This document shows positions 1 through 39,090 of a stretch of DNA of 42,877 nt, piece after piece; within the stretch, counting starts at the first letter, position 1, and each line of letters opens with the position of its first letter. Source of the stretch: a virus; the IMG/VR virus record IMGVR_UViG_3300034072_002229, positions 1-42,877 of that record; one strand, 5' to 3'. A model generated the notes under the pieces. That model was not told where the DNA came from and searched no databases. It saw only the letters and a program-made list of their open reading frames with translations. A program made the position numbers and the translations under genes.

Positions 1-462
1 TCAGTCTCCAAGGTTTGGCAACAGCGGCGGCATCTTGCCTGTGCGCTGCGCTTCGTCAATTTCTGGCAGCAGGCGCTGGCCTACTGTCTGGCCACCTGGC
101 AACACCAAGTGAGCCATGAACTCTTCTTCGAAAGTGGTGATCCCAGCTTCAACTGCTTCCAGCTTTGCTTTCACAACCAGAGACAGAGCGCGGTACTTTT
201 GCTTACAGGCCTGTTCCCACTCTTTAAGTGCAACTGACTCTGAGCGGTCGCGGCCTGTGTCAGTAACCCAGAACTGGCGGTCTGCTTTATCTGGCAGCGG
301 CACAGTGATCCGCACCTGACGGCCCATCATTACAAAACCGATAACAGCGTATTGGCCTGTTTTGCCGTACATGAACTGATCGGCGCCGTATCTGGCCAAA
401 ACCTTTTCTATTTCCAACAAGCTGGCTGTTTGGCTAACCTGTGTATCTTTTGCGTAGGCCAT
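1..462 (-). CDS. Conserved phage protein of unknown function (153 aa)
   Basis: The last gene of the leftward operon within this window; its stop codon is at the window edge. The start (ATG at 462) touches the stop of the upstream gene, as expected for coupled translation. The protein is soluble, with a charged N-terminal half containing a pattern like 'QVRITVPLPD' and a helical, Glu-rich C-terminal half. I recognise no catalytic motif. Its place beside methylase and nuclease-like genes suggests a DNA-metabolism accessory role, but that is inference from context only. Confidence 0.75.
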   Translation of the reverse strand: MAYAKDTQVSQTASLLEIEKVLARYGADQFMYGKTGQYAVIGFVMMGRQVRITVPLPDKADRQFWVTDTGRDRSESVALKEWEQACKQKYRALSLVVKAKLEAVEAGITTFEEEFMAHLVLPGGQTVGQRLLPEIDEAQRTGKMPPLLPNLGD

Positions 463-953
463 TATGCTGGCTCCTTAACTGGTATACCGTCATAGATCTC
501 TTTCAGATGGCCTCTGATTTCCATCCTGCGCAGCGCTGAATACATCAGCTGCAGCTCACAGCGTTTGTTTGCCACTTCAAAAGGGCGGTCGCTCCAAATC
601 TGAGTGTTTGTTGGGATGCCATGAACCCGTTCAATTTTCTTCGGGTGGCAATACAACAGGCCCCAACCGAATGGCAGTTCTTCAGGTTTAATCAAACCAG
701 GTGGACACATGTAAAAGCGCCACTCGCCCATGCCGTCTTTGGCTTCTATGCGGAAGCGCTTTTTCTTGTCAGCCAGAAAATCAGCACGGCTGGCTTTGCA
801 CTCAATAAGTAATGAAACACTGTCACGCCAGCCTATAGCATCCGGCTGCTCGCCGTTGTGAGTAGCAGCCTTAAATCGGTCGCTGAACACAACGCCACAG
901 CCCATATTTTTCAGGAAGCGTTCAGCCCGTGTTACAAGGTGATCGTGCGTCAT
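462..953 (-). CDS. Putative PD-(D/E)XK-type nuclease-like phage protein (163 aa)
   Basis: The residue pattern D39 (in PDAIGW), then E51-C-K53 in LLIECKAS, preceded by hydrophobic strand residues, matches the core D...ExK of PD-(D/E)XK nucleases. The rest is a small alpha/beta protein with a Trp-rich middle. It starts at ATG 953, overlapping the upstream stop by 4 nt. The family is inferred from the motif only. It could be an active early-phage nuclease or a degenerate member. Confidence 0.6.
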   Translation of the reverse strand: MTHDHLVTRAERFLKNMGCGVVFSDRFKAATHNGEQPDAIGWRDSVSLLIECKASRADFLADKKKRFRIEAKDGMGEWRFYMCPPGLIKPEELPFGWGLLYCHPKKIERVHGIPTNTQIWSDRPFEVANKRCELQLMYSALRRMEIRGHLKEIYDGIPVKEPA

Positions 954-1750
954 GCTGCTTGCTCCTGTTTGCTGGTGCTCAGTTTTCTTCGCTTCATTGA
1001 AATGTCTGCCATAGTCACAGCCGCTGTTTTTAATTCAGCTGGCACTGTGCCCATACCCATTTTGTTGATCACTGCTCCCTGGGCGCGGGTTATCAGCATC
1101 AGGTTTTCAATTGCCCAGTTCGTCCGGACATTATCTTTAAACCAAATGCGGTAACCTTTAGGGATAGGGCCGTTGTGCTTTTCCCACTCAACAACGTGCT
1201 TCATGCGCCACTTATTAGGCATGGCTACTTTGATCATCACATAGCCATCTTTGCTGCAGATCCGCTCTGAGCCTAAAGGCATGGTGTTAAGTGACTGGCC
1301 TTTTTTGAATCGTGTTTCAGCTGATCTGCCACCGGCACACCAGCCTTTCTTTCCGGCATTCCAGGACTTCTGGCCTTTATCAAAGCGGCCAGTTCTTCCG
1401 GATTTAACATTGTGGTTTCTTGTAAAAGAGCGGATCTGCTTGATGGTTTTAGCAGTACCAAACTCTGCATTGAATTCCGCGGTAAGCTCTACCAGGGTTA
1501 GTTCGGTATACTTTTGCTTGATGAAGTCCGCCTGTTGAACGGTGAACGTTCGCAGCACACCCTTATTCAATTCCCCAGTCTTTCGACCACAGGTGATTTT
1601 GTGGTTTTTAAGAGTGGCGCGAATTTGCTGCACTGTTTTGTCACTTTCAAATTTTTTATTGAAAGCTGCAGTAACTTCTGACAAACCTTTCAGCTTGTAT
1701 TGAGCCGCAATGAATTCCAGCATTTCTGGTGTGTATATGACGCGGCTCAT
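950..1750 (-). CDS. HNH-endonuclease-like protein with N-terminal repeat region (266 aa)
   Basis: The N-terminal half has two repeats of about 60 aa (YTPEMLEFIAAQY... and FTVQQADFIKQKY...), each ending in a short basic stretch. They resemble DNA-binding helical modules. The C-terminal part has the HNH_3-like layout: 'MKHVVEWEKHNGPIPKGY', then an Asn-containing 'AIENLMLITR'. The place where related proteins carry a His-His-Ile-Asp signature reads 'IWFKDN' here, so a metal-binding residue may be lost. It overlaps its neighbours by 4 nt on both sides. Confidence 0.65.
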   Translation of the reverse strand: MSRVIYTPEMLEFIAAQYKLKGLSEVTAAFNKKFESDKTVQQIRATLKNHKITCGRKTGELNKGVLRTFTVQQADFIKQKYTELTLVELTAEFNAEFGTAKTIKQIRSFTRNHNVKSGRTGRFDKGQKSWNAGKKGWCAGGRSAETRFKKGQSLNTMPLGSERICSKDGYVMIKVAMPNKWRMKHVVEWEKHNGPIPKGYRIWFKDNVRTNWAIENLMLITRAQGAVINKMGMGTVPAELKTAAVTMADISMKRRKLSTSKQEQAA

Positions 1751-1977
1751 GATTTCACCTCGAGCATTTCGTGAGTCCTCTTTACCAGGCCATCATCAAA
1801 TGCTTTCTGTGCTTCCAGTACCAACTTACCGTTCAGGATCACTTCTCTAGCTACACATGTAACTGCTTTGCTTCGTTCAATTTCAGCAAGAAGCTTTTCG
1901 CCCTCAAGGCTTTCATCAGCCAGTCGTTCAAGAGCTGCAAACAGGTGGTTGTTCAAGTCAGTTAATTTGTTTTTCAT
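1747..1977 (-). CDS. Small hypothetical protein (76 aa)
   Basis: A short, highly charged, predicted helical protein with no recognised motif. It is supported as a gene by exact 4-nt ATGA overlaps with both neighbours and by the lack of any better ORF here. Confidence 0.6.
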   Translation of the reverse strand: MKNKLTDLNNHLFAALERLADESLEGEKLLAEIERSKAVTCVAREVILNGKLVLEAQKAFDDGLVKRTHEMLEVKS

Positions 1978-2591
1978 GCTGCAGCTCCTGTTGGATGATA
2001 CTGAACCTTTATTTTTCCAAGCTTGCCAAACACTTTGGCAAAGCCGTCGATATTCGGGCCCATATAGGTGATCACGCTGCCTTTGGTGCAGCCCTTAACC
2101 TTTTTGCCATCTGGCCCCACGTAGTGCACCCGGGTGCGAGGGAAGCATTGGGGATAATCAAGCAGAGGCTGAAACCATGTCTCTGATGAATTACAGAACG
2201 TGATAATCACTGCCTCAGTCACACGGCCAGCGCTGTATTCAGCCCAAAGTTTGTTTATCCAGACTGCGTTGCCTGGTATTGCTTCTGTTATGTGGTAACC
2301 ACGGCTGATACAGGTTTTCTTTTTACATATAGCTTTGCATGGCGCTTCGCCGCGGTGGAACGGGTGGTTCATCCACACTCGGCCAAACCATTCTTTGCTC
2401 AGGCCATCATTTTCTTTAGTGAATATTTGCTTAGCCTGGATCCAGTTGTTGGCGAAATCACAGCTGGCAGGGTCAAGGTCAATACTGCCCATGAGTTCGC
2501 GTGCTGCATCTGTCCATGTTGCCGGTGTGTAGTATTCAAACCCTTGCTCGGCGCTGGTCTGGTTAATCAGGCTTGCTCTGTTGATGCTCAC
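1974..2591 (-). CDS. Phage DNA N6-adenine methyltransferase, Dam family (205 aa)
   Basis: The N-terminal 'YYTPATW' (20-26), 'IDLDPAS' (37-43) and 'RVWMNHPF' (71-78) match the phage DNA N-6-adenine-methyltransferase family. DLDPAS fits the acidic cofactor-binding loop, and NHPF sits where N6-adenine methylases carry the NPPF/DPPY catalytic motif. A Cys-rich insert (CKAICKKKTC, near 84-93) follows the catalytic motif. It probably methylates adenine in phage DNA, perhaps against host restriction. The His in the catalytic tetrad position is a mild divergence. Confidence 0.75.
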   Translation of the reverse strand: MSINRASLINQTSAEQGFEYYTPATWTDAARELMGSIDLDPASCDFANNWIQAKQIFTKENDGLSKEWFGRVWMNHPFHRGEAPCKAICKKKTCISRGYHITEAIPGNAVWINKLWAEYSAGRVTEAVIITFCNSSETWFQPLLDYPQCFPRTRVHYVGPDGKKVKGCTKGSVITYMGPNIDGFAKVFGKLGKIKVQYHPTGAAA

Positions 2592-2800
2592 TTTGCCACC
2601 TCGCTGACTTCTATTGGCCAGCCGACCCAGCTCACACAGCTCCGGGATTCAACAAGGCGACCATCATTTACACGGCGGGTTACCATTTCTTCGGCGCAGT
2701 ACTCGGCCTGAGTCGTTGCAGGGCGAGGGTAGACTGCAATAACTGTTACCAGAACGAATCCGGCAATGCCGATGGCTGTTAAATATTCGGGGCGTTTCAT
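2588..2800 (-). CDS. Small single-span membrane protein (70 aa)
   Basis: Residues about 8-24 (LTAIGIAGFVLVTVIAVY) form one hydrophobic segment, followed by a polar tail with two Cys residues. That layout suits an inner-membrane-anchored small phage protein. No family is recognised. It overlaps its neighbours by 4 nt at both ends. Confidence 0.55.
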   Translation of the reverse strand: MKRPEYLTAIGIAGFVLVTVIAVYPRPATTQAEYCAEEMVTRRVNDGRLVESRSCVSWVGWPIEVSEVAK

Positions 2801-3168
2801 GCTGACACCTCGCCATGATTTTTACGCACACTGGCAATTGCCTCTTCGATAGTTGGGTGACGCTCATGCATCCGGCCTTCTCTTTGGTGGCGCTTATGTG
2901 CAAAAAGCTTCAGTAAGCGCGGCCCAGAAGGGCATATTTCAAAGCGAATCATCCGGTCATGAGCAAGAATTACCGCTCTGGTCAGATTGTCGAAATCAAA
3001 CGTCGAGGCAGCAAAGGTCTGAGAGTTAATCATGAGCCCTTCACCTGATGGCTGAACCATTCCAAACATGTGATTACCGCCGTTATGAATTTCGCAAATA
3101 AACTCGAAACACTCCTTTTGGTCGGCAGTCATCCACGGGTAGCTTTTGGCGTAATATTCGTTTTTCAT
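2797..3168 (-). CDS. Hypothetical phage protein (123 aa)
   Basis: A mixed alpha/beta soluble protein, rich in His and aromatic residues, with no recognised motif. It is coupled by 4-nt overlaps to both neighbours in the leftward operon, which is the main support for translation. Confidence 0.6.
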   Translation of the reverse strand: MKNEYYAKSYPWMTADQKECFEFICEIHNGGNHMFGMVQPSGEGLMINSQTFAASTFDFDNLTRAVILAHDRMIRFEICPSGPRLLKLFAHKRHQREGRMHERHPTIEEAIASVRKNHGEVSA

Positions 3169-3491
3169 GCTGCTACCTCGCCAAAAACGAAGGTAATTTG
3201 TTCAACAGTTACACCGTAAAAATCGGCCATCACTGCGTTGTTCTTTTCACCAAGCACTTTGTCTCTGGCACAGTCGAGTAATAGATCTAGGGTGGTTTCT
3301 TCGTAGCCTCCCTCCGCAAGCTCTGACTGGCTAATCGAATCGCAGAATGTGTGCAGTGCGTAGTCGTAAGCCTTGCCATCAACAACGAAAACACGCTCAT
3401 AAGTTTCACCTTTGGCGATCTCTTTGCCGCAGAACTCACACTTATGAAGCTTCATTGCTAATCTGGTGGTCTTTGTTGAAAAGTCGGTCAT
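3165..3491 (-). CDS. Hypothetical protein with a CxxC zinc-binding-like motif (108 aa)
   Basis: Near the N-terminus 'HKCEFCGKEI' (C18, C21), followed about 25 residues later by 'HTFCDS', is a plausible His/Cys zinc-binding set. The C-terminal half is helical and acidic. Its start (3491) overlaps the reverse transcriptase stop by 4 nt, so it is translated from the same message as the DGR. No relation to the DGR mechanism is known to me. Confidence 0.6.
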   Translation of the reverse strand: MTDFSTKTTRLAMKLHKCEFCGKEIAKGETYERVFVVDGKAYDYALHTFCDSISQSELAEGGYEETTLDLLLDCARDKVLGEKNNAVMADFYGVTVEQITFVFGEVAA

Positions 3492-4798
3492 ACCCGCACC
3501 TCTCTTAAATTGTTATTTGTCTTTATCTCAACCAGCTGACCTTCGAGCCGGTAATCAAACTTGCGGTTTAATGTGACTGAGTTGATCCACGGGTAGCGAT
3601 CCAGAATCTTGCCCATCAGCCGGTTGCTATTCGATTGCTTGATGTGGCCTGTGTAGCTGGCAACGACAGAGCGGATATGCCGGATATCTTCTGGTGTTGC
3701 TGTGATTGCATCAGGCGTAACGAACTGGCTTTCAAAGCTGGCCAGCGCATCTTGGAAGTGAGTCACAACACGACGGCGTGTTTGTGTGTGGGTAGGTCTT
3801 ACGACATACCCCAGAAAGTCGATACCATCTGAAAGTGGGCGCAACTTAATGTCCGGCTTTAACTTCAGCCGTAACTGCCGGGCAATAAACTGCTCTATGT
3901 CAGCCTGCCAGCGCTGCAGCTGTGCCTTGTCGTGGTGAATAAGCACAAAGTCATCGACATAACGCAGATAGCGCTTGGCTTTTAAAACGTGCTTCACGAA
4001 TTGATCCAGCGTGTTCAGATACACGTTGGCGAAAAACTGCGAACTCAGGTTGCCGATTGGAAGGCCGCAAGCTGGTGCTGAGTTTTCAAGGCGCTTGTGC
4101 ATTGGCACGATTGAGCGTTCTGCATCACTGCACAGGTACTTCACGCCTTGCTGCAACGGATGATTTCTCAGCAGGGCATGAGTGGCATGCATCACCTGGT
4201 CAGATGCACCAGATTTCACGAGCTTCGCTTTTAACTGACTCCACAGCGTAGGGCGATGGATGGAGTTAAAGAAGTTATGGATATCCAACTGCAGGTAAAA
4301 CGCAGTTGGCGCCTGCCGGATAAACTGCTGCAAACGCTCTACAGCTTTGTGCGAGCCCTTGCCTTTTTGGTTGGCGTAGCTGTCGTAGATAAAAGCCGGC
4401 TGCCACAACTTTTCCAGCTGCGGTACCAACCAGTGATGTACAACGCGGTCTGAAAAATCAGGAGCGTGTATTTCTCTTGCTTTTGGCAGGGCAGCAATAA
4501 AGCATGTGCTTGGCTTTGGCTGCCATGAACAGTCGTTAATGCTGTGCTGTAACTCCAGCAGGCCACTGGTCCAGTTGGTATCGAAATGTAACTGGTTTGA
4601 GCTTGGCTTTTTGCCTTTACGGGCCTTCCCCCAAGCGCTATAAATTTGCTGGAGCGAAACGACTTCATTGCACTGACACTCACCGCCGCGAACCGCACGG
4701 ACACACGCGTTGTTGTTGATGTCGTTGTTGTTGACATTGCCGTTGTTGAAATTGACCACCCAACGGGCAGACTTGTTACCGTTCACTTGAAGCGTCAT
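3488..4798 (-). CDS. DGR reverse transcriptase, with the template repeat encoded in its N-terminus (436 aa)
   Basis: This RNA-directed DNA polymerase copies the template repeat (TR) into mutagenised cDNA that replaces the variable repeats. It has the DGR hallmark 'IGNLSSQ' (G249-Q254), where other RTs carry a different motif, the catalytic YVDD box (Y280-D283), and an N-terminal 'YSAWGKARKGKK' block typical of the family. I place the start at ATG 4798: it has an AAGGGGA Shine-Dalgarno 6 nt upstream and overlaps the Avd stop as ATGA. An upstream TTG at 4822 is possible but less likely. Residues 10-39 are the TR itself (SARWVV..., ...ACVRAVRGG). No in-frame ATG, GTG or TTG lies between the TR and the first RT block, so RT translation must pass through all or most of the TR. 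Confidence 0.96.
   Translation of the reverse strand: MTLQVNGNKSARWVVNFNNGNVNNNDINNNACVRAVRGGECQCNEVVSLQQIYSAWGKARKGKKPSSNQLHFDTNWTSGLLELQHSINDCSWQPKPSTCFIAALPKAREIHAPDFSDRVVHHWLVPQLEKLWQPAFIYDSYANQKGKGSHKAVERLQQFIRQAPTAFYLQLDIHNFFNSIHRPTLWSQLKAKLVKSGASDQVMHATHALLRNHPLQQGVKYLCSDAERSIVPMHKRLENSAPACGLPIGNLSSQFFANVYLNTLDQFVKHVLKAKRYLRYVDDFVLIHHDKAQLQRWQADIEQFIARQLRLKLKPDIKLRPLSDGIDFLGYVVRPTHTQTRRRVVTHFQDALASFESQFVTPDAITATPEDIRHIRSVVASYTGHIKQSNSNRLMGKILDRYPWINSVTLNRKFDYRLEGQLVEIKTNNNLREVRV
4682..4772 (-). repeat. DGR template repeat (TR), 91 bp
   Basis: Ninety-one bp matching both variable repeats end to end without gaps. On the coding strand all 22 adenines lie in a core of AAC/AAT-type codons encoding mostly Asn. 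The 5' flank (GCCCGTTGGGTGGTC) and the GC-rich 3' flank (GCGTGTGTCCGTGC and onward) contain none. The next base 3' of the TR differs from the VRs (TR ..GGTGAG, VR ..GGTCAG). Because every adenine-containing codon ends in C or T, no adenine substitution can create a stop codon. It lies 23 nt past the avd stop, inside the RT gene. Confidence 0.95.
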
Positions 4799-5277
4799 TG
4801 CACATCCCCTTGGGTAGCACAACGTTGCCGATTGTTTAGCCCCATATGAGAGGCGGAACGGTCACTCAGTATCTGAGCACGCTCCTGCTGCGGTGCAGCA
4901 GAATTCTGGCCCTTCTCATGCAATGCGCGTTTCCACCCACCAGCACAGCGGCCTACATCGTCAGCTGCACGAATAATCACTTCAAACTGCTTGAAGCTTT
5001 TAAAGGCATACAGCTGCTTGGCCAGCTGAATAACGACCTTCAGTTCGTCAATTGCCCAAACCAGTTCGTTTACCCAGTGAATTTGACGGCTACGGTCACG
5101 CCAGGCGCGGTTGCATAACTGAACAACAAGCATCACTGCTGTTCTCAAGTTAGCCCCGATCGCGTACTTGTTGTACCGGGCAAAACCCCTGACTGCGTTT
5201 TCAATAGCAACAGCCAGGCTTTCTGCCTTACGAGCAATTTCTGGTAATCCGTTTCTGTTAGCCGTCATAGCATTCAC
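4795..5277 (-). CDS. avd: Avd-like DGR accessory protein (about 160 aa)
   Basis: Avd proteins form helical-bundle oligomers that bind nucleic acid and the RT, and are needed for mutagenic retrohoming. This protein is almost wholly helical. It shows the family pattern 'RYNKYAIGANL' near the start of the bundle, long basic/hydrophobic helices, and 'AGGWKRAL' at the end of the last helix. A polar tail of about 45 aa follows, which is longer than I would expect. The ORF begins with GTG at 5277; ATG at 5268 is an equally plausible start, and neither has a strong ribosome-binding site. Its stop overlaps the RT start by 4 nt. Confidence 0.88.
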   Translation of the reverse strand: MNAMTANRNGLPEIARKAESLAVAIENAVRGFARYNKYAIGANLRTAVMLVVQLCNRAWRDRSRQIHWVNELVWAIDELKVVIQLAKQLYAFKSFKQFEVIIRAADDVGRCAGGWKRALHEKGQNSAAPQQERAQILSDRSASHMGLNNRQRCATQGDVQ

Positions 5278-5300
5278 TCACAAATCAAAAAGACAAAAAG

Positions 5301-5672
5301 TTACTGACCGCCGCGAACCGCACGGACACACGCGTAGTCGTAGATGACGCCGCTGCCGACACCGCCGCCGTCGAAACCGACCACCCAACGGGCAGACTCT
5401 GGACGCCATGCACATGGAGTGCTTGTCCAGTACCAATCGCTTTCAGTATCCGGAAAAGCTTCTGTATCGATTGCCGGGTCGTATTTAGTGCGGTGGACAA
5501 TGGTTTGCAGCTCGTCGACTGTGGGTAAACGCCAGCCTTCACCTAAGGCCTCAACGGCCTTTACTGCATCTTCAAAAGTGACATCACTTGCCACCGTGTT
5601 TTGGCTCCACACCAGACCTGTTAAGGTGTCTGTTACTGTTTTGCCGTCTTCGCTTTTAGAAAAACGTGACAT
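5301..5672 (-). CDS. DGR target protein 1, DUF1566/Lcl C-type-lectin-like fold (123 aa)
   Basis: A compact single domain with the DUF1566 signatures 'TGLVW', 'EALGEGWRLPTVDEL' and 'WYWTSTP', ending in the variable repeat. The C-terminus 'ACVRAVRGG' is the invariant end shared with target 2 and the template. DGR diversity typically sits on this lectin-like fold, on the ligand-binding face. There is no signal peptide, transmembrane segment or fibre shaft, so it looks like a free-standing binder or a decoration added to something else. The start ATG 5672 has AGAAGGA upstream. Confidence 0.9.
   Translation of the reverse strand: MSRFSKSEDGKTVTDTLTGLVWSQNTVASDVTFEDAVKAVEALGEGWRLPTVDELQTIVHRTKYDPAIDTEAFPDTESDWYWTSTPCAWRPESARWVVGFDGGGVGSGVIYDYACVRAVRGGQ
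5307..5397 (-). repeat. DGR variable repeat VR1, 91 bp
   Basis: Aligned to the template without gaps, it has 16 differences, all at template adenines (coding strand); the 69 non-adenine positions are identical. Eleven of the 12 mutable codons encode a different residue from the template (Asn to Gly, Asp, Ser or Tyr; Asp26 to Val, in RT numbering). It ends at the target gene's stop codon. Confidence 0.95.
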
Positions 5673-5713
5673 TGGTTTTTTCCTTCTGGGTTGGTTAAAT
5701 CAAAAAACAGAAA

Positions 5714-6151
5714 CTACTGACCGCCGCGAACCGCACGGACACACGCGCCGTAGTCGAGGCCGTTGCCGTAGACATAGCCGCTGTCGAAATCGACCACCCA
5801 ATGGGCAGACTCTCTGTTCCAGGCGCATGGCGTTGCCGTCCAGTACCAGGTGCTTTTGGTGTCTGGATACTTGTCGGTATCAATGCATGGGTCGTGACGT
5901 TCTAAGTCGACCAGAGTTAGCAGTTCTTCACGAGTAGGCAGGCGCCAGCCTTCGCCTAATTCGGCTACAGCGTTTTCAGCTTTTTCGAAGTTCACTCGTT
6001 CGCCGTCGAGCAGTGTCTTGCTCCACTCAAGGCCTGTGGCTGGCTCAAGTACTGTTGCAGCAGCTACTGCGGCATCAGTAGTTGGTGAACCGATGGCCGT
6101 TAAGTGAACGTTTACCGTTGCACCCTTTTCGCAAGTAATATGTAAATTCAT
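5714..6151 (-). CDS. DGR target protein 2, DUF1566/Lcl C-type-lectin-like fold (145 aa)
   Basis: Paralogue of target 1 with the same core signatures ('TGLEWSK', 'ELGEGWRLPTREEL', 'WYWTATP') and the same C-terminal end. It has about 30 extra N-terminal residues (MNLHITCEKGATVNVHL...), which could mediate attachment or oligomerisation. No signal peptide is visible. It is the first gene of the DGR in transcription order. ATG 6151 has an AAAGG ribosome-binding site 8 nt upstream. Confidence 0.9.
   Translation of the reverse strand: MNLHITCEKGATVNVHLTAIGSPTTDAAVAAATVLEPATGLEWSKTLLDGERVNFEKAENAVAELGEGWRLPTREELLTLVDLERHDPCIDTDKYPDTKSTWYWTATPCAWNRESAHWVVDFDSGYVYGNGLDYGACVRAVRGGQ
5720..5810 (-). repeat. 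DGR variable repeat VR2, 91 bp
   Basis: A gapless match to the template with 14 differences: 13 at template adenines and one at a non-adenine (template G to A at 5802, coding strand, Arg to His), near the 5' end of the repeat. Eleven of 12 mutable codons differ from the template residue. The substitution pattern is independent of VR1. Confidence 0.95.
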
Positions 6152-6193
6152 GGTTTTTAACCTTTCAGTTGGGCCATCCGTGGCCGTAACGAT

Positions 6194-7030
6194 TTAAGCT
6201 GCTTTAAAAGTACCGATGCTGATTGCTGGTGCTTTTTCATAGCTATCAAAACCAGATTTCAGCAGAGCGCTGAACTCCTGAGCAAACTGCTCTGGGTAGG
6301 TTTCAAAGCGCTTAATACGCATCACAATTTTTGGCACTTCGCTACTGGTCAGTACACTAACGCGCAGGTCAAACTCGTACTCAGTCAGGCCAGCGTAAGG
6401 CACACACTTAAAGCGAACTGTGGCTGGTAAACCGGCATTGGTATCAACAGACATGCTTTCGAGTGCGGATTTCTCCGTGCGGAAGTTGCCTTGTTCACTT
6501 TCAGACTTGCGGCTGGCTTCAATGGTGATCCGGCGCACTGCTGCAATGGCCTTGGCCGGATTAATCACCTCGCCGTTTTCATCAATACACGTAATAAAGG
6601 TTCCCCAGTCTTCCAGAAACTCGGCTGCAGCTTTTTGGCTTACTGTTTCACCGTTGATCTGGCACAGCGCTTTGTACTCAGCTGTTTTCTTCAAAGTGAC
6701 AATAGCTTTGTCGTCACAATGACCAGGTGTATGGATAGAGCCGAAGTTGAAGATATTTACCGCAGCCATGCTTTCTTCATTAATGAAGCACTGTTGGTTG
6801 GTTTCACCGTGGCCTTTCACATAGTCGATAAACTCAACAATGCTGCTGGTGTTCATTTCGCCACGGAAGCGATCGCGGTGTTGCTGGTATTTTTCCAGTG
6901 ACTGCAGGGTAATATCAGATGGAACAGCAACCAGTTGTGACTGCACTGTGTTGGTGTTAACAGCATCCTGAACAGCTTGAGCCGTCTGGCTTTGCTGAAT
7001 GTGTTTAATGGCTTCAATCGTTAATGACAT
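6194..7030 (-). CDS. DUF2303 (YfdQ-like) phage protein (278 aa)
   Basis: Resembles the YfdQ/DUF2303 family often found in the early left arm of temperate enterobacterial and related phages. Recognisable stretches are 'FNFGSIHTPGHCDDKA' in the first half and 'VRFKCVPYAGLTEYEFDLR' in the second. It is soluble and mixed alpha/beta. Its biochemical role is unknown; its position suggests DNA metabolism or recombination. It sits immediately upstream of the DGR targets. Confidence 0.75.
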   Translation of the reverse strand: MSLTIEAIKHIQQSQTAQAVQDAVNTNTVQSQLVAVPSDITLQSLEKYQQHRDRFRGEMNTSSIVEFIDYVKGHGETNQQCFINEESMAAVNIFNFGSIHTPGHCDDKAIVTLKKTAEYKALCQINGETVSQKAAAEFLEDWGTFITCIDENGEVINPAKAIAAVRRITIEASRKSESEQGNFRTEKSALESMSVDTNAGLPATVRFKCVPYAGLTEYEFDLRVSVLTSSEVPKIVMRIKRFETYPEQFAQEFSALLKSGFDSYEKAPAISIGTFKAA

Positions 7031-7084
7031 AAAATAATCTCGCGTTTAGGTTGAGAAGTAGCCGGCGAACCGGCTGGCGGTGGT

Positions 7085-7420
7085 TTAAAGTTGTTCGTTC
7101 ACCTTGCCTTTCTTGTCGAACATCACGTTCTGATGCTCTGGCAAGAAGGTGACCTTGGCTTTTTCGCCAACAAACATAGGGGTTTTGTTGGTTTCGTTTT
7201 CTGACTGCTTACCGCGCAAAGTCGGACGCATGAAATGCAGGTCGTGTTCGACCATGACTTGCTGCTCAGACAGCTTTTTAAACTTCAGCTTGATAGTGAT
7301 TTCGCCAGCTGTGCCGTGGTCCATTACTGAACCTGCAACCATGCTGATACATTTGCTGAACTTCTCTTCCAGCTGGCCGCCGTCGAGGTCGCTAATAAAT
7401 TGATCTACTGGTGTTGCCAT
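7085..7420 (-). CDS. Conserved phage early protein (111 aa)
   Basis: A small mixed alpha/beta protein ('GEITIKLKFKKL', 'HDLHFMRPTLRG') next to the DUF2303 gene. I know this kind of pairing in other temperate phages but no function for it. There is no membrane segment and no catalytic motif. Confidence 0.65.
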   Translation of the reverse strand: MATPVDQFISDLDGGQLEEKFSKCISMVAGSVMDHGTAGEITIKLKFKKLSEQQVMVEHDLHFMRPTLRGKQSENETNKTPMFVGEKAKVTFLPEHQNVMFDKKGKVNEQL

Positions 7421-7464
7421 CGTTATGCCCCTTATGTTGGGTGGTTGTCGTAGTGGTTTTGCGA

Positions 7465-8064
7465 TTAAGCCGCAGCAGACTGCTGCAGGGTGGTTAAATC
7501 GTCGCTGATTTGTTCAAGCACTTCTGAAATGCTCGGGTCCATCAGCAGCGCCAGGCGGTGCAGTACAGCAAGCTTTAACTCAAGCTTTACTGGCGCAGGT
7601 ATTTTGCGGTTGAGGCGTTGTTCTAAATTCAGTAGGGCAGCAGTAACCGGTTCTGGTATCACCGCTGTTTCTTCTGCAGTTTCAGCCGCTGAGTCGCGCA
7701 GAAGTGCTTCTAAGCTATCTTTTGGTACTTCTGCTAAAACCGGATCTTTGTATTCAGAAACGCAGGTCATTTCGGCGGTCGGCTTATTCACTGCTACTTG
7801 TTCAGTTGGCTGGTGTTTAGCTGTGTCTGGTTGGGCTTTTGCAGTTGCTGCATCACCCAATTTGCCTGCCAGATAGTCTTTCCCCTTGGGGCTGATAGTG
7901 AACTGGCCGTTGTCGTACTTAGTCGCCAAACCAAGCTCTACCAGCTGATTGGCAAGGCTTTCAGCCAGAACTTTAGCTACTGTCATTTGTTTAGCCATTG
8001 CCGTTACAGACAAAGGCTTAAACTTAAGCGCTGTAAGTGCAGATTTTTGTGTGGTGTTCAGCAT
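7465..8064 (-). CDS. Hypothetical protein with N-terminal winged-helix-like domain (199 aa)
   Basis: Residues 1-65 read like a winged helix: helices around 'KSALTALKFKPLSVTAMAKQ' and 'AESLANQLVELGLATKY', then a hairpin 'GQFTISPKGKDYL'. A polar, Ala/Glu/Pro-rich linker and a helical C-terminus ('LNRKIPAPVKLELKLAVLHR') follow. It is probably a DNA-binding early regulator or accessory protein; that is inference from the fold pattern. Confidence 0.6.
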   Translation of the reverse strand: MLNTTQKSALTALKFKPLSVTAMAKQMTVAKVLAESLANQLVELGLATKYDNGQFTISPKGKDYLAGKLGDAATAKAQPDTAKHQPTEQVAVNKPTAEMTCVSEYKDPVLAEVPKDSLEALLRDSAAETAEETAVIPEPVTAALLNLEQRLNRKIPAPVKLELKLAVLHRLALLMDPSISEVLEQISDDLTTLQQSAAA

Positions 8065-8402
8065 AAAAACTCCGTCGTAGTGGTGTTTTGTTGTGGAAGC
8101 CCGGTACGTCTGACGCCATTGGCCACCAACCAGTTGATTTCTTTTGGTGATGGCTTAAAGCAGCCTTCGTGTACTAACAGCCAGCCGCCATCGGCCAGTT
8201 CGTTAATTTGGTAAACAGCCTGGGCGTGACTGTTAAATATCCCGAGGCGTTTAATTGCGCCTATGCCCATCACTGAATCCGGGTTAATGCAGTTCTGATC
8301 TATCAGGTAAATGGCTGTGCGTTGCTGCAGCGTCAGTTCTGAATCTGTCTGCACGGTAAAAACCGAAGTAGGGCATAGCTGTGCTGTTTGAACTGCGCTC
8401 AT
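8058..8402 (-). CDS. Hypothetical winged-helix-like early protein (114 aa)
   Basis: Has a pattern of short helices followed by 'INELADGGWLLVHEGCF', which could be a winged-helix recognition and wing element. It overlaps the downstream gene by 7 nt and the upstream gene by 4 nt. No family assigned. Confidence 0.55.
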   Translation of the reverse strand: MSAVQTAQLCPTSVFTVQTDSELTLQQRTAIYLIDQNCINPDSVMGIGAIKRLGIFNSHAQAVYQINELADGGWLLVHEGCFKPSPKEINWLVANGVRRTGLPQQNTTTTEFLC

Positions 8403-8725
8403 GCACCGCCTCTTAAAAACTGGTGAACGTTGGCCAGCGTGCTGGTGCGCAAAACAGTGCAGTGCGTCATATCGTTGTTGATATGCAGAGCAAAGCGCCC
8501 ATCCGTGCCAATAGTGCCCATATGGTCCATGTAATTAGCCTGAAACTCAGGGCTTGGCAGGGCGCGTTTGATTTGATTCAGCAGACGTTGCTGTGCTGCT
8601 TTCACTTTAGGGTCTTGACCTACTTCAACATAGGTACTCATAAAGCAGCGGAAGCGCAGGCTTAACAAATGCAGCTCTTCCATTGCGTGTTTGCGGCGGT
8701 GGGTGGTTTTTGTTAAGACTGACAT
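8399..8725 (-). CDS. First gene of the leftward operon, hypothetical (108 aa)
   Basis: Begins 25 nt after the predicted pL start point, with AGGTGAG as ribosome-binding site. The N-terminus is basic ('KTTHRRKHA') and the rest helical, then 'HMGTIGTDGRFALHIN'. It sits where lambda carries antiterminator N, but only a few basic residues resemble an arginine-rich RNA-binding motif, so I do not call it N. Confidence 0.6.
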   Translation of the reverse strand: MSVLTKTTHRRKHAMEELHLLSLRFRCFMSTYVEVGQDPKVKAAQQRLLNQIKRALPSPEFQANYMDHMGTIGTDGRFALHINNDMTHCTVLRTSTLANVHQFLRGGA

Positions 8726-8747
8726 TTATCTCACCTAGTTAATTTAA

Positions 8748-8764
8748 CTTAACTAAAGGTTAAG
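8748..8764. promoter_or_regulatory. 17-bp palindrome overlapping pL
   Basis: CTTAAC-N5-GTTAAG, a perfect inverted repeat that covers the predicted pL -10 hexamer. Probably a repressor (CI or Cro) site; TTAAC half-sites also occur in the cI-cro region. Confidence 0.55.
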
Positions 8765-8785
8765 CAAAATTAATTTGAAGGTCAA
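8757..8785 (-). promoter_or_regulatory. pL-like promoter of the leftward operon
   Basis: On the minus strand TTGACC (8785-8780) and TAACCT (8762-8757) are separated by 17 bp. The same -10 hexamer and spacing occur at the predicted pR (10146-10174). Transcription would begin near 8750, just ahead of the gene starting at 8725. Confidence 0.6.
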
Positions 8786-8791
8786 GATAAA

Positions 8792-8811
8792 AAGTTATTA
8801 AAACTTAACTT
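8792..8811. promoter_or_regulatory. CI-type operator at pL
   Basis: A 20-bp site, AAGTTATTAAAACTTAACTT, matches the site at 10122-10141 in 17 of 20 positions. It lies 6 bp upstream of the pL -35. An inverted AAGTTA/TAACTT pair is visible within it. The inferred binder is the CI repressor. Confidence 0.6.
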
Positions 8812-8821
8812 TTATTTTGAG

Positions 8822-8848
8822 GCAAAAAAAACCCGCTCTTGGCGGGTT
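8822..8848 (-). terminator. Terminator after the lipoprotein gene
   Basis: AACCCGC-tcttg-GCGGGTT (8830-8848), preceded on the plus strand by a run of A. On the minus strand this is a 7-bp stem followed by a run of T. It would end the cI-lipoprotein transcript before the pL region. Confidence 0.75.
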
Positions 8849-8874
8849 GTTCTTGTAGAGTTAAATGTAATGTT

Positions 8875-9261
8875 CTAACCAGAGAATAGACCGTGCTCAG
8901 ACTCAACTTCAGACTCAGACAGGATGTAATTCTTTACCTTGCCGTTATCATCAAAAAGTACAGTCAGTGTTTTTTGAATGCCCGACGATGTACTGTAAGC
9001 CCAGGCTGTGTAAATAAAGTAGCAGGAGGCATTGCAGCTTTGCTTAGTAAACACGTATTTCCACATCTCATTGCCACTGTTATGGAATGTTGCATCCAGT
9101 GGGTCTCCAAATGCTGCGCGTACTTCGTCTTTAGTGGTTACGCCTTTTACCAGCTTTTGCTCAAGTGTCTGTTGGTTCTCTTCTTTAATGGCTTCATTGC
9201 CCACGCTGGAGCAACCAGTTACTACCATCGCCAATAAAAGAGCGGTCATAATTTTTTTCAT
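8875..9261 (-). CDS. Small lipoprotein with SmpA/BamE-like domain; likely lysogenic gene (128 aa)
   Basis: A signal peptide (MKKIMTALLLAMVV) ends in lipobox VTGC with Cys17, predicting export and lipidation. The mature part has 'KLVKGVTTKDEVRAAFGDP' and 'WKYVF', the layout of SmpA/OmlA/BamE-type outer-membrane lipoproteins, and a CNASC motif in the middle. It lies directly downstream of cI on the same strand and ahead of a terminator, so it should be expressed in the lysogen. A role in altering the host surface (for example superinfection exclusion) is inference. Confidence 0.75.
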   Translation of the reverse strand: MKKIMTALLLAMVVTGCSSVGNEAIKEENQQTLEQKLVKGVTTKDEVRAAFGDPLDATFHNSGNEMWKYVFTKQSCNASCYFIYTAWAYSTSSGIQKTLTVLFDDNGKVKNYILSESEVESEHGLFSG

Positions 9262-9344
9262 TTTATTTCCTACTGGTCAGCTATTGCATCATGCAAATCG
9301 TTTTCGTGTGCAATGACAAGGGGTAATCCTTGCTCCTTCACGTA

Positions 9345-10097
9345 TCAGATTAGCACTGAGTACCAGAAGACTTTACCCAGTACCTTCAGCTTTTCAGCTT
9401 GCTGGCCTGATATGTCTTCGTCAGGGTATTCGTCTTTGTTGTAGCTGCGTAGCCTGTAACCACCGCCAGGCAGCCGATAAAGTATCTTCACGCGCAGCAG
9501 GCCGTCGTGGTCAACTGCATACATTTCACCGTCTTTGACTTTTGTGTTAGCAGTGTCGATACCTACAGTCGCTTTATCTGGAAGTACTGGCTGCATTGAA
9601 TTACCGCTAACCACGACGCACGCCGCATGTTCTGCACTCACACCCTGGCGCTTTAGCGTAGATTTGGCAAAGCGCAGTTTAAAACCGGTATTTTCCTTTA
9701 CCACTGAGGATCCATTCCCTGCTGATAACTCTACTTCTTTAAAAAATGGCAGCTCTACTTCATCGTCTCGAAGTGGTGTTTTGCTATCCCATACTTCAAA
9801 AGTTCCAACATCTTCTCGAACAGAATGGTCTGTTGGCCCCACGCCTGCATACAAATCAATAATTTTTATGTTTTCGGTCTTCACGCCTGCTCTTGTAGGT
9901 GTTCCTGTTCCATACAGCAACCAACTCTGATCACACCTCAAAGCAGAACAGAGCGAATCCAAATTTTTGCCATTTGGATCATTCGTCCCAGATTCCCACA
10001 GAGAAATAGCAGTCTTCGAGACGCCAACAAATTCGGCAACCTCTAATTGGGTAAGTTTGAGTTCCTTGCGGCGACTCTTAATTCTTTCACTCATCAT
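9345..10097 (-). CDS. cI: CI-type repressor, HTH plus S24 self-cleavage domain (250 aa)
   Basis: The N-terminal HTH_3 domain ('KLTQLEVAEFVGVSKTAISLWESG', about 14-37) binds the operators. The C-terminal LexA/CI-like S24 peptidase has nucleophile Ser167 in 'SGNSMQP' and Lys204 in 'LLRVKIL'. RecA-stimulated self-cleavage and prophage induction follow from that family. It is divergently oriented to cro, with operators between them. The start is ATG 10097 (a second ATG is adjacent at 10094). Confidence 0.92.
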   Translation of the reverse strand: MMSERIKSRRKELKLTQLEVAEFVGVSKTAISLWESGTNDPNGKNLDSLCSALRCDQSWLLYGTGTPTRAGVKTENIKIIDLYAGVGPTDHSVREDVGTFEVWDSKTPLRDDEVELPFFKEVELSAGNGSSVVKENTGFKLRFAKSTLKRQGVSAEHAACVVVSGNSMQPVLPDKATVGIDTANTKVKDGEMYAVDHDGLLRVKILYRLPGGGYRLRSYNKDEYPDEDISGQQAEKLKVLGKVFWYSVLI

Positions 10098-11655: not shown

Positions 11656-12495
11656 ATGAAACAACCACTTCTTTGCATTTACCACGCTAACTGTGCAGAC
11701 GGTTTTACTGCTGCATGGGCTGTTCGTAAAAAACACCCTGATACAGAGTTTCACCCGGGCACCTATGGCAAAGAGCCACCTGATTGCGCTGGCCGTGATG
11801 TGGTTATGGTCGATTTTAGCTATAAGCGTGATGTGTTATTGCGAATAGCTGCTGTGGCCAACACTGTGCTGATACTGGACCACCACAAAAGTGCTGCAGG
11901 TGATTTGGTTGATCTGCCGGCTAATGTAACGGCCATTTTTGATATGCATCGCAGTGGCGCCATGATGGCATGGAATCATTACCACCCTGATGTAAAACCA
12001 AATGACTTGTTAGTTCACGTACAAGATCGAGATCTTTGGTTATTCAAGCGCGAACAAACCAGAGCTTTTCAGGCCAATCTTTTTAGTTACGAATACACGT
12101 TTGAAAATTGGGATAGCATTGCCCAGTTGTGCGAAGACTCGTTTTGCTACAGCAGATTTGTAAGTGAGGGCGAAGCAATAGAGCGCAAACACTTTAAAGA
12201 CGTTAAAGAGCTGATCCGCGCAGCAGCTTATCGGTCGGTCATTGCTGGCCATGACGTTCCTACCTTAAACGCCCCGTACTTTTATAGTTCAGACGCTGGA
12301 CACCAAATGAACCAGGGCGAAGCCTTTGCAGCTTGTTACTACGATACAGCTGATAACCGTGTTTATAGCTTGCGATCACAACCGGATGGCGCGGACGTTT
12401 CGCTTATTGCAGCCAAGTTCGGCGGTGGTGGGCATAAAAACGCGGCTGGTTTCAGAATAGCACTAAGCGAGTTGAACCATGTCACGGCAGGCTAA
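11656..12495 (+). CDS. DHH-family phosphoesterase (279 aa)
   Basis: DHH phosphoesterases hydrolyse phosphodiester bonds in short oligonucleotides or cyclic dinucleotides with metal ions. Visible motifs: 'DGFTAAWA' (about 15-22), 'VVMVDFSY' (about 49-56), the signature 'LDHHKSA' (about 73-79), 'HVQDRDLW' in the middle, and a DHHA1-type 'FGGGGHKNAAGF' near the C-terminus. It follows the structured RNA with no intervening gene. Degradation of small RNAs or a cyclic-nucleotide defence signal are both possible; the sequence does not decide. Confidence 0.85.
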   Translation: MKQPLLCIYHANCADGFTAAWAVRKKHPDTEFHPGTYGKEPPDCAGRDVVMVDFSYKRDVLLRIAAVANTVLILDHHKSAAGDLVDLPANVTAIFDMHRSGAMMAWNHYHPDVKPNDLLVHVQDRDLWLFKREQTRAFQANLFSYEYTFENWDSIAQLCEDSFCYSRFVSEGEAIERKHFKDVKELIRAAAYRSVIAGHDVPTLNAPYFYSSDAGHQMNQGEAFAACYYDTADNRVYSLRSQPDGADVSLIAAKFGGGGHKNAAGFRIALSELNHVTAG

Positions 12496-14789: not shown

Positions 14790-14992
14790 CGTTTAACTTG
14801 GCCGCTGATCCGGCTTTGGCAGAAGCTGAGGCAGTAAATAAGGTTGCATGCCTGTGGCTTCATAACTGGCGTAACAACCTCATGGCCAAGCCGGATATAG
14901 ATCGAAAGTTGGCAGCAATGCCGGAACCAGAGCGAAGCCGGACGGTTGCAGCGTTAAATCGGAATAAGAAGCTATTTAAGCGGGGTGACTGA
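14786..14992 (+). CDS. Small hypothetical protein (68 aa)
   Basis: A basic helical protein ('NKVACLWLHNWRNNLMAK') translationally coupled by 4-nt and 1-nt overlaps between P and the recombinase. Function unknown. Confidence 0.6.
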   Translation: MTFNLAADPALAEAEAVNKVACLWLHNWRNNLMAKPDIDRKLAAMPEPERSRTVAALNRNKKLFKRGD

Positions 14993-16206
14993 TGCAGTCT
15001 TTATCTGTCGTTATATCTGATGCAGCCATCACCCGGCATGCAGCTGATGCTGATGTGGGCGAACTGCGTGATCAGCGTCAGCCCCTTGCGCTTCGTTACC
15101 GTTCTGGCCGTCAAAAGGCTACCTGGTACTTAGTGCAGTATCAAAACCGGATCAAGATACGTCACCGCCTTGGCTACTGGCCGACACTGAAAACCAAAGA
15201 TGTAGTGGCAATGGTACCGGAGTTACTGAGCAAGTTAACTGCTGGTCAGCAGGTGAAAACAGGCACCTTTGAAACTGTTGGCCAGCTGCTTGAATGGTAC
15301 CGGGGCAGAACTGCCAAAGAAGTAACGAAATCACCGGAATGGAGAAGGGCAGTTGAAAGCGCGATTGATGCTCACTTATTGCCACTTCTTGGCGCCTTAC
15401 CTGTTGGCCAACTGACTAAAGCGGTGCTTGATACCCAGCTGATCCTGCCTTTGGTGAACTCTGATTTAAAGCCGTCGACCATGCGCAAGTACTGGGGAAC
15501 ATTAAAGACGGCCGTAAAACTGGCTGCAAAGCTGGAACTGCTGGCCACTGACTATATGGCGGGAATGAAGTTTGTCGACCATGTAACGAAGCGGATCAAG
15601 CCGAAGGAAAGCCGGTTGCGTGTAACCAGCCTGCCGCTGGTGTGGGAGCAATTGCAACGTGCTGCCGTTGATGGTTGGGCGCTGGTCTGGCTGATGCTGC
15701 TGTTTGGTACCCGCATTGGTGAGACGCGGCAGCTACGTTGGTCCTACATCGATTTTACAGCAGGCATGGTGGCTATTCCGGCGCAGATCACAAAAACCGA
15801 TGTGACGCATGTTCTACCTGTTACCGCGCTGGCTAAAGAGTTTCTGGATAAGTTCAGGACTGTTCGAGAGTCATTCGGTATTTATTCCGATTTCCTGTTT
15901 CCATCAGGTACTGAAGCCATAAGCAGCCAGGCAGCGCAAAAGCATATTCAGCAGGTGAGTAAGGGCAAATGGTCGGCCCACGATTTGCGCAAAATGGCTC
16001 GTTCTGCCTGGGCAGAGTTGGGCATTGATTACTGGATGGCCGAGCGCCTGCTGAACCATAAACCCAAAGGGCTGGATGCGGTTTACATCAAAACCGAAGC
16101 CTTATCAGAGCGGTTAAAAGCAGTGAACGTGTACCACGATTGGCTGATAAAGCAGGGTTTAAATGTAGGCACAGTGCAGGCATTGAAAAAAGCGGTGAAT
16201 GCTTAG
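14992..16206 (+). CDS. Tyrosine recombinase / phage integrase within the early operon (404 aa)
   Basis: Contains an N-terminal arm-binding-like region, a core-binding SAM-like domain, and the catalytic domain with R241 (GTRIGETRQ), H330-x-x-R333 (HDLRKM), H356 (LLNHKP) and nucleophile Tyr365. All catalytic residues are present. The gene directly follows the replication genes, an unusual place for a phage integrase, and no excisionase is recognised beside it. It may be the phage's own integrase or a resolvase-like enzyme; a second integrase lies at 41639-42877. Confidence 0.88.
   Translation: MQSLSVVISDAAITRHAADADVGELRDQRQPLALRYRSGRQKATWYLVQYQNRIKIRHRLGYWPTLKTKDVVAMVPELLSKLTAGQQVKTGTFETVGQLLEWYRGRTAKEVTKSPEWRRAVESAIDAHLLPLLGALPVGQLTKAVLDTQLILPLVNSDLKPSTMRKYWGTLKTAVKLAAKLELLATDYMAGMKFVDHVTKRIKPKESRLRVTSLPLVWEQLQRAAVDGWALVWLMLLFGTRIGETRQLRWSYIDFTAGMVAIPAQITKTDVTHVLPVTALAKEFLDKFRTVRESFGIYSDFLFPSGTEAISSQAAQKHIQQVSKGKWSAHDLRKMARSAWAELGIDYWMAERLLNHKPKGLDAVYIKTEALSERLKAVNVYHDWLIKQGLNVGTVQALKKAVNA
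16165..16187. repeat. 23-bp direct repeat, copy 1 (inside the recombinase 3' end)
   Basis: An exact 23-bp copy of 16287-16309, 122 bp apart, lying in the last codons of the recombinase gene. The following bases also match loosely (a GCTGGTAAG block occurs after each copy), which suggests a duplicated segment of about 70 bp. Confidence 0.85.
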
Positions 16207-36927: not shown

Positions 36928-39090
36928 ATGGCCATTCAGCCAATTAAGTTCTTGGTTAGCCCAAGTGCTACCGCTATTAATGCATCAAAAACAATCACTG
37001 TTTCTGGTAACGTTGACTGTTCATATATATACAGTGGTACAGCAGTTTTTATCGGAAATAGTCAGGTTGTAGAGGCTATATCAGGGTCGCCACCAGACAC
37101 AAATGGCAACAGTCTTATCACTCTTAGATACCCTTGGCCATTTCCGGATACAACAGACCGGCTTGTAGCAATAAATACGATAGAAGGGATGTCAGAATCA
37201 ATTCGCTATGCCAGAGAAGTGGTATCAAAAACCGATGCAATCTCTGCGGACGCAGACCGTGCAGCTGCTAACGCAGATAGGTCCTTGGATTCAGTTAATA
37301 AAGCTGCTTTGTATGCAGATTTGGCGATGCAGACTGCGGGAATTTATAAGACAGTTCAAGAAGGATTAGCTGCCGTTCAACATGACAAATACTTTCAAGT
37401 TCCAAGTTCTGAATCTACCGAGTTTGTGATCCTATATAAAAACGAATCTGGGGTTGCGGTCGAAGTCAAACGTTACCCCAGTAAATTGGCTATAGAAAAC
37501 CTTGGTTTAGAGGATCAAAACCACGAAGTATCAGGTTTGATTTTTGCGGTGACAGACGATAACGGAAAGTTAACGTGGCTTGAAGTGTTAAAGGATGGAG
37601 GTCCTTCAGCCAGAGCGGTGAAGTTGATACAGGACCGGCTATCGGTGCCGGACTTAGTGAATGCCTTACCTGATTTTCAAGAAACGGAAGAAATACCTTT
37701 TCCTGATACGAATGAACAAATTTTTGCATTGGTTGATGAAACTGGCAGACGAACTTGGCTCGAAGTTATAAAGGACGGAGGCCCTTCAGCCAGAGCGGTG
37801 AAGTTGATACAGGACCGGCTATCGGTGCCGGACTTAGTGAATGCCTTACCTGATTTTCAAGAAACGGAAGAAATACCTTTTCCTGATACGAATGAACAAA
37901 TTTTTGCATTGGTTGATGAAACTGGCAGACGAACTTGGCTCGAAGTTATAAAGGACGGAGGCCCTTCAGCCAGAGCGGTGAAGTTGATTCAGGACAAGCT
38001 ATCGGTCCCGGATTTAGTGAACGTCTTACCTGATTTTCAAGAGCTTGAAGAAATTGCCAGGCAAGATCTAAATGAGCCGCATTTTGCCATCACTGACGAG
38101 GAAAATCGTCGTACATGGTTAGAAATGAACCAAGAGGGAAAGCCTACCGCAAGGGCGATAGCGCTTATTGCTGAGAAACTAGTTCTCGCTGGCGACTTTA
38201 ATGGTACGGCGCAGAAATATAGCGCGACAGTCAATTCAAAAAAGCTTGGAGTTGTATCTGGGCCAAACATAGTCTGCTGGGGCGATAGCATGACAGCAGG
38301 TGCTGGTGGCAATGGCACAACATATCCGCTCGTACTTCAACAGTTGTTGCAGCAATCCGGCTCAACTGCCGTAGTTACGAACAGGGGGGTTGGTGGAGAA
38401 AGCTCTGTAACCATCACTTGCCGCACGAATGCAAATCCATTTTTGGTAACTGTTTCAGGCGGGGTGATCCCTGCGACTGGACAGGTTGCAATTTCTCTGC
38501 TGCCAGTCAATGGACATACGCCAGGTCCAATGAAACAAGGTCCAGCAAGTTACAAATGCAGTTTGCTCGGCGTCAAAGGCACTTTCGGAAGAACTGTTGT
38601 AGATAATATTTACAACTACTGGTTTCAACGCGACCTGGCTGGTGTGGATATACCAGCTAACAGACCTTCGCCGCTCTACCTGGACACTGCTGAAGAGCAC
38701 AGAGGTGACATTGCAATCATTTGGATCGGTCAAAATGGTCCAAGCAATGAAAGGGCTATACAGGATGCAAAAGCCATTGTCCGGAATCTAACTGCGTTAG
38801 AAAAGCGATTTTTAGTAATTTCAAAGCCAGGTGGTACGACTGCACAAAACACCGAAGATGCGCGCTGGTTTGAAGAGTTTGGTCGGCGGTTTATTCCGAT
38901 CCGCCAATACATGGTTGAGTTTGGATTGAGCGATGCAGGTATCACACCTACAGAACAAGATTTAACAGATATAGCGAGCGGTACAGTTCCAGCATCTTTG
39001 CGGGTGGATAGTGTTCATTGGGTTGCCTCAGGTTATCAGATCTTGGGGCGGTTAGTATTTGAGCGTTTAAACGAGTTAGGGTGGTTATAA
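36928..39090 (+). CDS. Tail fibre with C-terminal SGNH esterase domain (720 aa)
   Basis: N-terminal virion-binding part, an Ala-rich coiled coil ('ADADRAAANADRSLDSVNKAA', about 108-128), then 60-aa repeats, then an SGNH/GDSL hydrolase. The hydrolase has nucleophile Ser454 in 'CWGDSMTAG', N603 in 'WIGQNG', and D694/H697 in 'DSVHW'. Such virion esterases deacetylate surface polysaccharides. The two middle repeats are identical at the DNA level. Confidence 0.85.
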   Translation: MAIQPIKFLVSPSATAINASKTITVSGNVDCSYIYSGTAVFIGNSQVVEAISGSPPDTNGNSLITLRYPWPFPDTTDRLVAINTIEGMSESIRYAREVVSKTDAISADADRAAANADRSLDSVNKAALYADLAMQTAGIYKTVQEGLAAVQHDKYFQVPSSESTEFVILYKNESGVAVEVKRYPSKLAIENLGLEDQNHEVSGLIFAVTDDNGKLTWLEVLKDGGPSARAVKLIQDRLSVPDLVNALPDFQETEEIPFPDTNEQIFALVDETGRRTWLEVIKDGGPSARAVKLIQDRLSVPDLVNALPDFQETEEIPFPDTNEQIFALVDETGRRTWLEVIKDGGPSARAVKLIQDKLSVPDLVNVLPDFQELEEIARQDLNEPHFAITDEENRRTWLEMNQEGKPTARAIALIAEKLVLAGDFNGTAQKYSATVNSKKLGVVSGPNIVCWGDSMTAGAGGNGTTYPLVLQQLLQQSGSTAVVTNRGVGGESSVTITCRTNANPFLVTVSGGVIPATGQVAISLLPVNGHTPGPMKQGPASYKCSLLGVKGTFGRTVVDNIYNYWFQRDLAGVDIPANRPSPLYLDTAEEHRGDIAIIWIGQNGPSNERAIQDAKAIVRNLTALEKRFLVISKPGGTTAQNTEDARWFEEFGRRFIPIRQYMVEFGLSDAGITPTEQDLTDIASGTVPASLRVDSVHWVASGYQILGRLVFERLNELGWL
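37621..37980 (+). repeat. Perfect 180-bp tandem duplication in the fibre gene
   Basis: 37621-37800 and 37801-37980 appear identical base for base. Diverged copies flank them, so the repeat array is older, with a recent in-frame duplication of one 60-aa unit. Confidence 0.97.

Follow-up and report, generated by a model that had tools for sequence, protein, structure and literature searches.

Does the leftward early arm of a temperate phage carry a working diversity-generating retroelement (DGR), and how is its template arranged relative to the reverse transcriptase (RT) gene? This question is raised by a 42,877-nt virus record from IMG/VR, which was analysed over its whole length (the window) and for which an earlier note, made from the sequence, had described one template repeat (TR) and two variable repeats (VR1 and VR2) that differ at adenines. 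The cassette is arranged in the order VP2, VP1, avd, TR and RT, followed by HNH endonuclease and methyltransferase genes; VP1 and VP2 are the target genes. Taken as a whole, the locus is best explained, with a probability of about 0.93, as a functional Avd-type phage DGR with the TR translated as part of the RT gene. By homology with the DGR of Bordetella phage BPP-1, a transcript of avd, TR and RT would be copied by RT and Avd with misincorporation opposite template adenines, and the resulting complementary DNA (cDNA) would replace the 3′ end of each target gene. A single RNA would be both the RT message and the template, with no noncoding spacer after the TR. The element belongs to a known kind of DGR and its architecture merits study.

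Adenine-confined differences between template and variable repeats

The TR and both VRs were aligned without gaps on the coding (-) strand over the coordinates given in Table 1. The span considered in the earlier note corresponds to columns 2-92 of this alignment (5307-5398 and 5720-5810), and the true repeat reaches column 96, up to the stop codons. Within the shorter span the base-by-base alignment reproduced the counts of that note: the TR contains 22 adenines, VR1 differs from it at 16 positions (13 A>G, 3 A>T), every one at a TR adenine, and VR2 differs at 14 positions, 13 of which are TR adenines (9 A>G, 3 A>T, 1 A>C). The sole exception, a G>A change at 5802 on the coding strand (Arg>His), precedes the adenine changes, the first of them by 11 columns, and fits an ordinary mutation near the 5′ edge of VR2; as the one non-adenine substitution in the span it leaves the claim of adenine specificity standing. 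Together, TR adenines take 29 of the 30 VR differences on 22 of the 91 columns (Fisher exact odds ratio 265, p = 1.7e-21). VR1 and VR2 are mutually unlike at 16 positions, which supports the earlier statement that they were mutated independently. In the columns beyond this boundary two more TR adenines were found, both unaltered in the VRs, as well as a G (TR 4681) that is C in each VR (5306 and 5719). The scan for additional adenine-biased repeat copies that had been proposed yielded none elsewhere in the 42.9-kb record.

Related loci were drawn from IMG/VR and GTDB and were, where a host was named, mostly Xanthomonadales prophages. Substitutions were counted in 187 ungapped TR/VR pairs of 94 related loci. 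Changes were present at 2564 of 4554 TR A sites (56%), at 10 of 6844 C sites (0.15%), at 10 of 3530 T sites (0.28%) and at 220 of 6094 G sites, 202 of the latter being G>C. The VRs of sister strains, whose alignment had also been proposed, were compared in 10 copies from four phages (the window phage and sisters L004, L005 and L006). Wherever the TRs of these phages diverge at a non-A site, the VRs match the TR of their own phage (11/11 sites), while the VP flanks of these sisters diverge by 9-28% from the window. Since the VRs track their own TR while the flanks diverge, retrohoming occurred repeatedly after those phages split, and transfer is, judged by these copies, unidirectional from TR to VR. 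The intact RT, Avd and target genes, the adenine specificity across the clade and the own-TR signatures in four phages uphold the view of the earlier note: the sequences indicate that the DGR has clearly been active in the past.

That this DGR was once active and is now dead in the window phage is unlikely. The non-A change at 5802 in one VR would agree with such a loss, but the RT, Avd, VP1 and VP2 reading frames are all intact, the latter two with a VR at the C terminus, and the RT motifs IGxxxSQ (IGNLSSQ) and YVDD are present. Moreover, apart from 5802 and the fixed G/C position at the 3′ end, no non-A site differs between the TR and either VR, which places the last homing recently relative to the divergence of approximately 11% from L004 and L005. 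Ordinary duplication and divergence, by which the three repeats are drifted paralogous 3′ ends that arose with no retrohoming, is suggested by the tandem paralogues VP1 and VP2 and is refuted, with next to no probability left, by the concentration of differences on TR adenines and by the own-TR bases amid diverging flanks. The DGR is clean and probably live, has close sisters and carries two or three targets, which makes it well suited to measurements of targeted mutagenesis in a temperate phage.

The template repeat within the RT gene

The position of the TR inside the RT reading frame goes beyond the account of the earlier note. The RT start reads M-TLQVNGNK-SARWVVNFNNGNVNNNDINNNACVRAVRGGE-CQCNEVVSLQQ..., with the TR in frame with the targets. 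Residues 1-46, made up of the TR and its flanks, are predicted to be disordered (predicted local distance difference test score, pLDDT, of 33-54 at residues 1-40), and the RT core has a pLDDT >85 nearly throughout. The best fold match of the protein is the DGR RT of BPP-1 (8ub7, E 5e-24).

In order to survey the frame, 109 untruncated loci with ≥50% identity in the RT core were used, 90 of them non-redundant and used for the length test; start and length were evaluated without assuming a frame. Every one of the 109 loci has its TR within the open RT frame. An ATGA at the avd stop is present in 107 loci and is in frame with the RT in 105, and the distance from this ATG to the RT core is divisible by 3 in 90/90 non-redundant loci with 21 distinct lengths. 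The end of the TR is separated from the RT core by 7-26 nt in 108 of the 109 loci, and a conserved G-rich stretch resembling a ribosome binding site is found 8-11 nt upstream of the RT ATG. In the window, the first ATG, GTG or TTG past the TR is at residue 124, within the conserved RT domain. We strongly infer from these features that RT translation begins at the ATG upstream of the TR.

Alternatively, the RT could start after the TR at a non-ATG codon, with the TR as an untranslated spacer as in BPP-1 and its open frame incidental, as the target frame demands openness. This is very improbable: the predicted disorder of the TR-encoded residues, the differing frames of two relatives, which leave the TR peptide without a fixed role, and the start of BPP-1 brt 144 nt past the TR would agree with it, but the ATGA overlap, the multiples of three across 21 lengths and the late position of the next possible start in the window contradict it. 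The two relatives are L028 (5842-6018) and L089 (5848-6012), which read the TR in a non-target frame with the RT frame still open from the ATG. This difference in frame and the predicted disordered tail suggest that translation of the TR is kept and that the peptide is a passenger. Across the clade, 204 of 219 VR copies end an open reading frame (ORF) in the RT-equivalent frame, the exceptions being mostly contig-end cuts, gapped copies or those of L028 and L089. In several more distant DGRs (39-48% identity) stops are present between TR and RT, so the arrangement is not universal.

The base that differs between template and targets at the 3′ end is fixed in 187/187 pairs, with GTGAGT in the TR and GTCAGT in the VRs. 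In the TR codons xGT GAG TxT, codon positions 1 and 2 vary (Gly/Ser/Arg; Phe/Cys/Tyr), and GTGAGT plus the next T are fixed or nearly so, the opposite of protein-level conservation. Because nucleotides are kept while the encoded residues vary, GTGAGT is regarded as a putative recognition element equivalent to the IMH* of BPP-1 (IMH, initiation of mutagenic homing). The fixed G/C base would be the discriminator between TR and VR that marks the targets, and it probably protects the template.

For this large clade of gammaproteobacterial prophage DGRs it is proposed tentatively, at somewhat less than even odds, that translation of the TR is obligate and supplies the RT with its disordered N terminus, that one RNA is message and cDNA template without a spacer, and that the single G/C difference picks the targets. 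A clade-wide frame constraint on a TR within the RT appears to be undescribed in the searchable literature. If the proposal is true, priming must rely on RNA within coding sequence or take some other route. Ribosomes and RT would then also contend for one stretch of RNA, a conflict by which mutagenesis could limit itself.

Comparison with BPP-1 and other described elements

The element is a DGR: it combines a DGR-type RT, adenine-confined differences between TR and VR, transfer from its own TR and a C-type-lectin target with a C-terminal VR. As in BPP-1 (mtd-avd-TR-brt), target, avd, TR and RT follow each other on one strand, and the RT fold, the adenine-specific TR-to-VR changes and the type of target are shared. 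Of the BPP-1-type features, Avd is present, with a homologue in 109/109 clade loci, as is an IMH/IMH* difference with a putative function. The window Avd scores slightly under the curated cut-off of 40 bits against PF22296 bAvd (5e-9, 37 bits), and a sequence search of Avd and VP1 in the PDB gave no useful match. Missing are the noncoding spacer and the hairpin located 4-34 bp after the VR. Unlike in BPP-1, where 144 nt are present between TR and brt, no such spacer is found here and the RT ATG is upstream of the TR; unlike in BPP-1, where the target is next to tail genes, the cassette is located in the early arm. The BPP-1 spacer recruits bRT-Avd, primes cDNA synthesis and is needed for priming (PMC12875486), and the hairpin after the VR is required for efficient homing (PMC3240598). 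A template in RT coding sequence without a spacer clashes with this requirement and makes priming testable in a second system.

Several results weigh against a functional DGR translated through its TR. In contrast to other phage DGRs, no GC-rich hairpin or cruciform (7-10 bp stem, 4-nt loop) was found within 60 nt after the VRs of the window, and the stems found at this place in the clade, of 4-6 bp, were not above shuffled sequences. The stretch downstream of the TR showed no RNA element that was either long and conserved or exceptionally stable. The evidence of activity consists of assembled sequences, one in the case of the window phage. Furthermore, long open frames arise by chance in GC-rich relatives, and the brt frame of BPP-1 is open upstream too, so openness by itself proves little and the case for translation rests on the ATGA overlap, the frame-keeping lengths and the lack of later starts. 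Finally, many relatives have GTG or TTG codons after the TR, where a second, internal start is possible.

A concealed spacer of ~140 nt within the RT codons was considered and is unsupported by synonymous-site and folding tests. Synonymous differences are low in the TR (0.05-0.20), partly low in codons 41-46 and normal from codon 47, and folding z-scores of the 146 nt after the TR range from -2.4 to +1.2. Some structure may be present inside the RT codons; downstream synonymous sites are normal and folding is unremarkable. Past the VR stop codons, but not past the TR, there is a T-rich tract (clade consensus RATTGGCCTTTTTG; window 5283-5302 and 5696-5715, - strand). It is possible that this tract is a target-site element replacing the hairpin.

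The literature has established DGRs as well as DUF1566 targets and the occurrence of multiple VRs (PMC4159848, PMC6642488). A TR overlapping the RT ORF at its 5′ or 3′ end was catalogued in 2012 as structural group 3 of DiGReF (PMC3521204), and the window element fits the 5′ case. In that source's section on it, group 3 is an annotation class, with no test of frame conservation, of a start overlapping avd or of translation through the TR. In Stenotrophomonas sp. SKA14 several DUF1566 targets are diversified together by two TRs and six VRs (PMC6642488). Stenotrophomonas relatives fall in the clade of the window, and SKA14 is likened to it by its published description.

Target proteins and surroundings of the cassette

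The AlphaFold2 model of VP1 has a C-type-lectin fold (pLDDT 96) and matches the Legionella Lcl C-terminal domain (8q4e, Z 14.1) and the DGR targets TvpA (2y3c, Z 9.1) and Mtd (1yu3, Z 8.9). The Lcl domain is the nearest solved fold (109 residues, 26% identity); it is part of a larger adhesin and, within the tests made here, no DGR target, whereas VP1 is standalone. Most mutable adenines are held by ten AAY codons of the TR, each of which can reach 15 residues and never a stop. As small C-type-lectin proteins with ten varying AAY codons, VP1 and VP2 are probably exchangeable binding tips.

Receptor-binding proteins are the main targets of phage DGRs (PMC10743442), and an even chance is given to VP1 and VP2 being virion receptor-binding tips like Mtd in BPP-1. 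The Lcl_C/C-type-lectin fold close to Mtd and, by eye, the lack of an apparent secretion signal speak for this role. However, the target genes are located in the early left arm, far from the tail module and on the opposite strand, the cassette adjoins DNA methyltransferase and integrase genes in relatives (methyltransferase in L010, both in L019 and L077), and Pfam and PHROGs scans gave no tail-attachment domain in the targets. This kept early-arm place near methyltransferase, HNH and integrase genes, the small standalone domains and the presence of up to four targets per clade locus would agree with proteins that work within the lysogenised cell or on it, for instance in superinfection immunity, counter-defence or lysogenic conversion. 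Such a role is a serious possibility short of an even chance. Receptor-binding tips are the usual expectation, and on position alone a role in the lysogen is about as likely. Targets in the early arm call into question the view that tail tips are invariably what a phage DGR diversifies.

In two sisters a third DGR target gene was observed ~2.4 kb upstream (L004:2859-3272, L005:2893-3267). It adjoins a homologue of window 8058-8727, and the window is without this target, which suggests that targets are gained and lost.

Table 1. Features of the DGR cassette and its surroundings in the window.
Feature	Position	Strand	Remarks
RT, 436 aa	3488..4798	-	ATG 4798-4796 overlapping avd stop; PF00078 4.3e-18; phrog_1423 2.5e-99
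TR	4678..4773	-	96 nt; 24 A, 22 in mutable part; frame shared with RT and target proteins
TR 3′ motif GTGAGT (putative IMH* counterpart)	4678..4683	-	VRs read GTCAGT
Avd accessory protein, 160 aa	4795..5277	-	phrog_3206 'Avd protein of DGR' 6e-16; stop overlaps RT start (ATGA)
VP1 (target 1), 123 aa	5301..5672	-	Standalone Lcl_C/DUF1566; PF07603 4e-27
VR1	5303..5398	-	Final codons of VP1; 16 A-site changes
VP2 (target 2), 145 aa	5714..6151	-	Lcl_C with short N-terminal extension; PF07603 3e-23
VR2	5716..5811	-	Final codons of VP2; 13 A-site changes and G>A at 5802
Leftward early arm carrying the DGR	1..10097	-	HNH endonuclease, DNA methyltransferase, DUF2303 protein, CI-like repressor
CI-like repressor	9345-10097	-	
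Integrase	41639-42877	-	Opposite record end from the DGR-bearing early arm

The record represents a lambda-like temperate phage and looks complete; the rightward genes comprise CII, O and P, lysis, terminase, portal, head, tail, J and fibre genes. RT and cassette DNA gave distant matches alone among phage records. A second tyrosine-recombinase/integrase-like gene (14992-16206, +) is located in the right arm directly after the O/P replication genes. The tail-fibre protein (36928-39090, +) contains a GDSL-lipase-like stretch under the Pfam cut-off. Additionally, the phage carries genes for a DHH phosphoesterase (11656-12495, +) and an SOS-response-associated peptidase (SRAP; 39995-40678, -).
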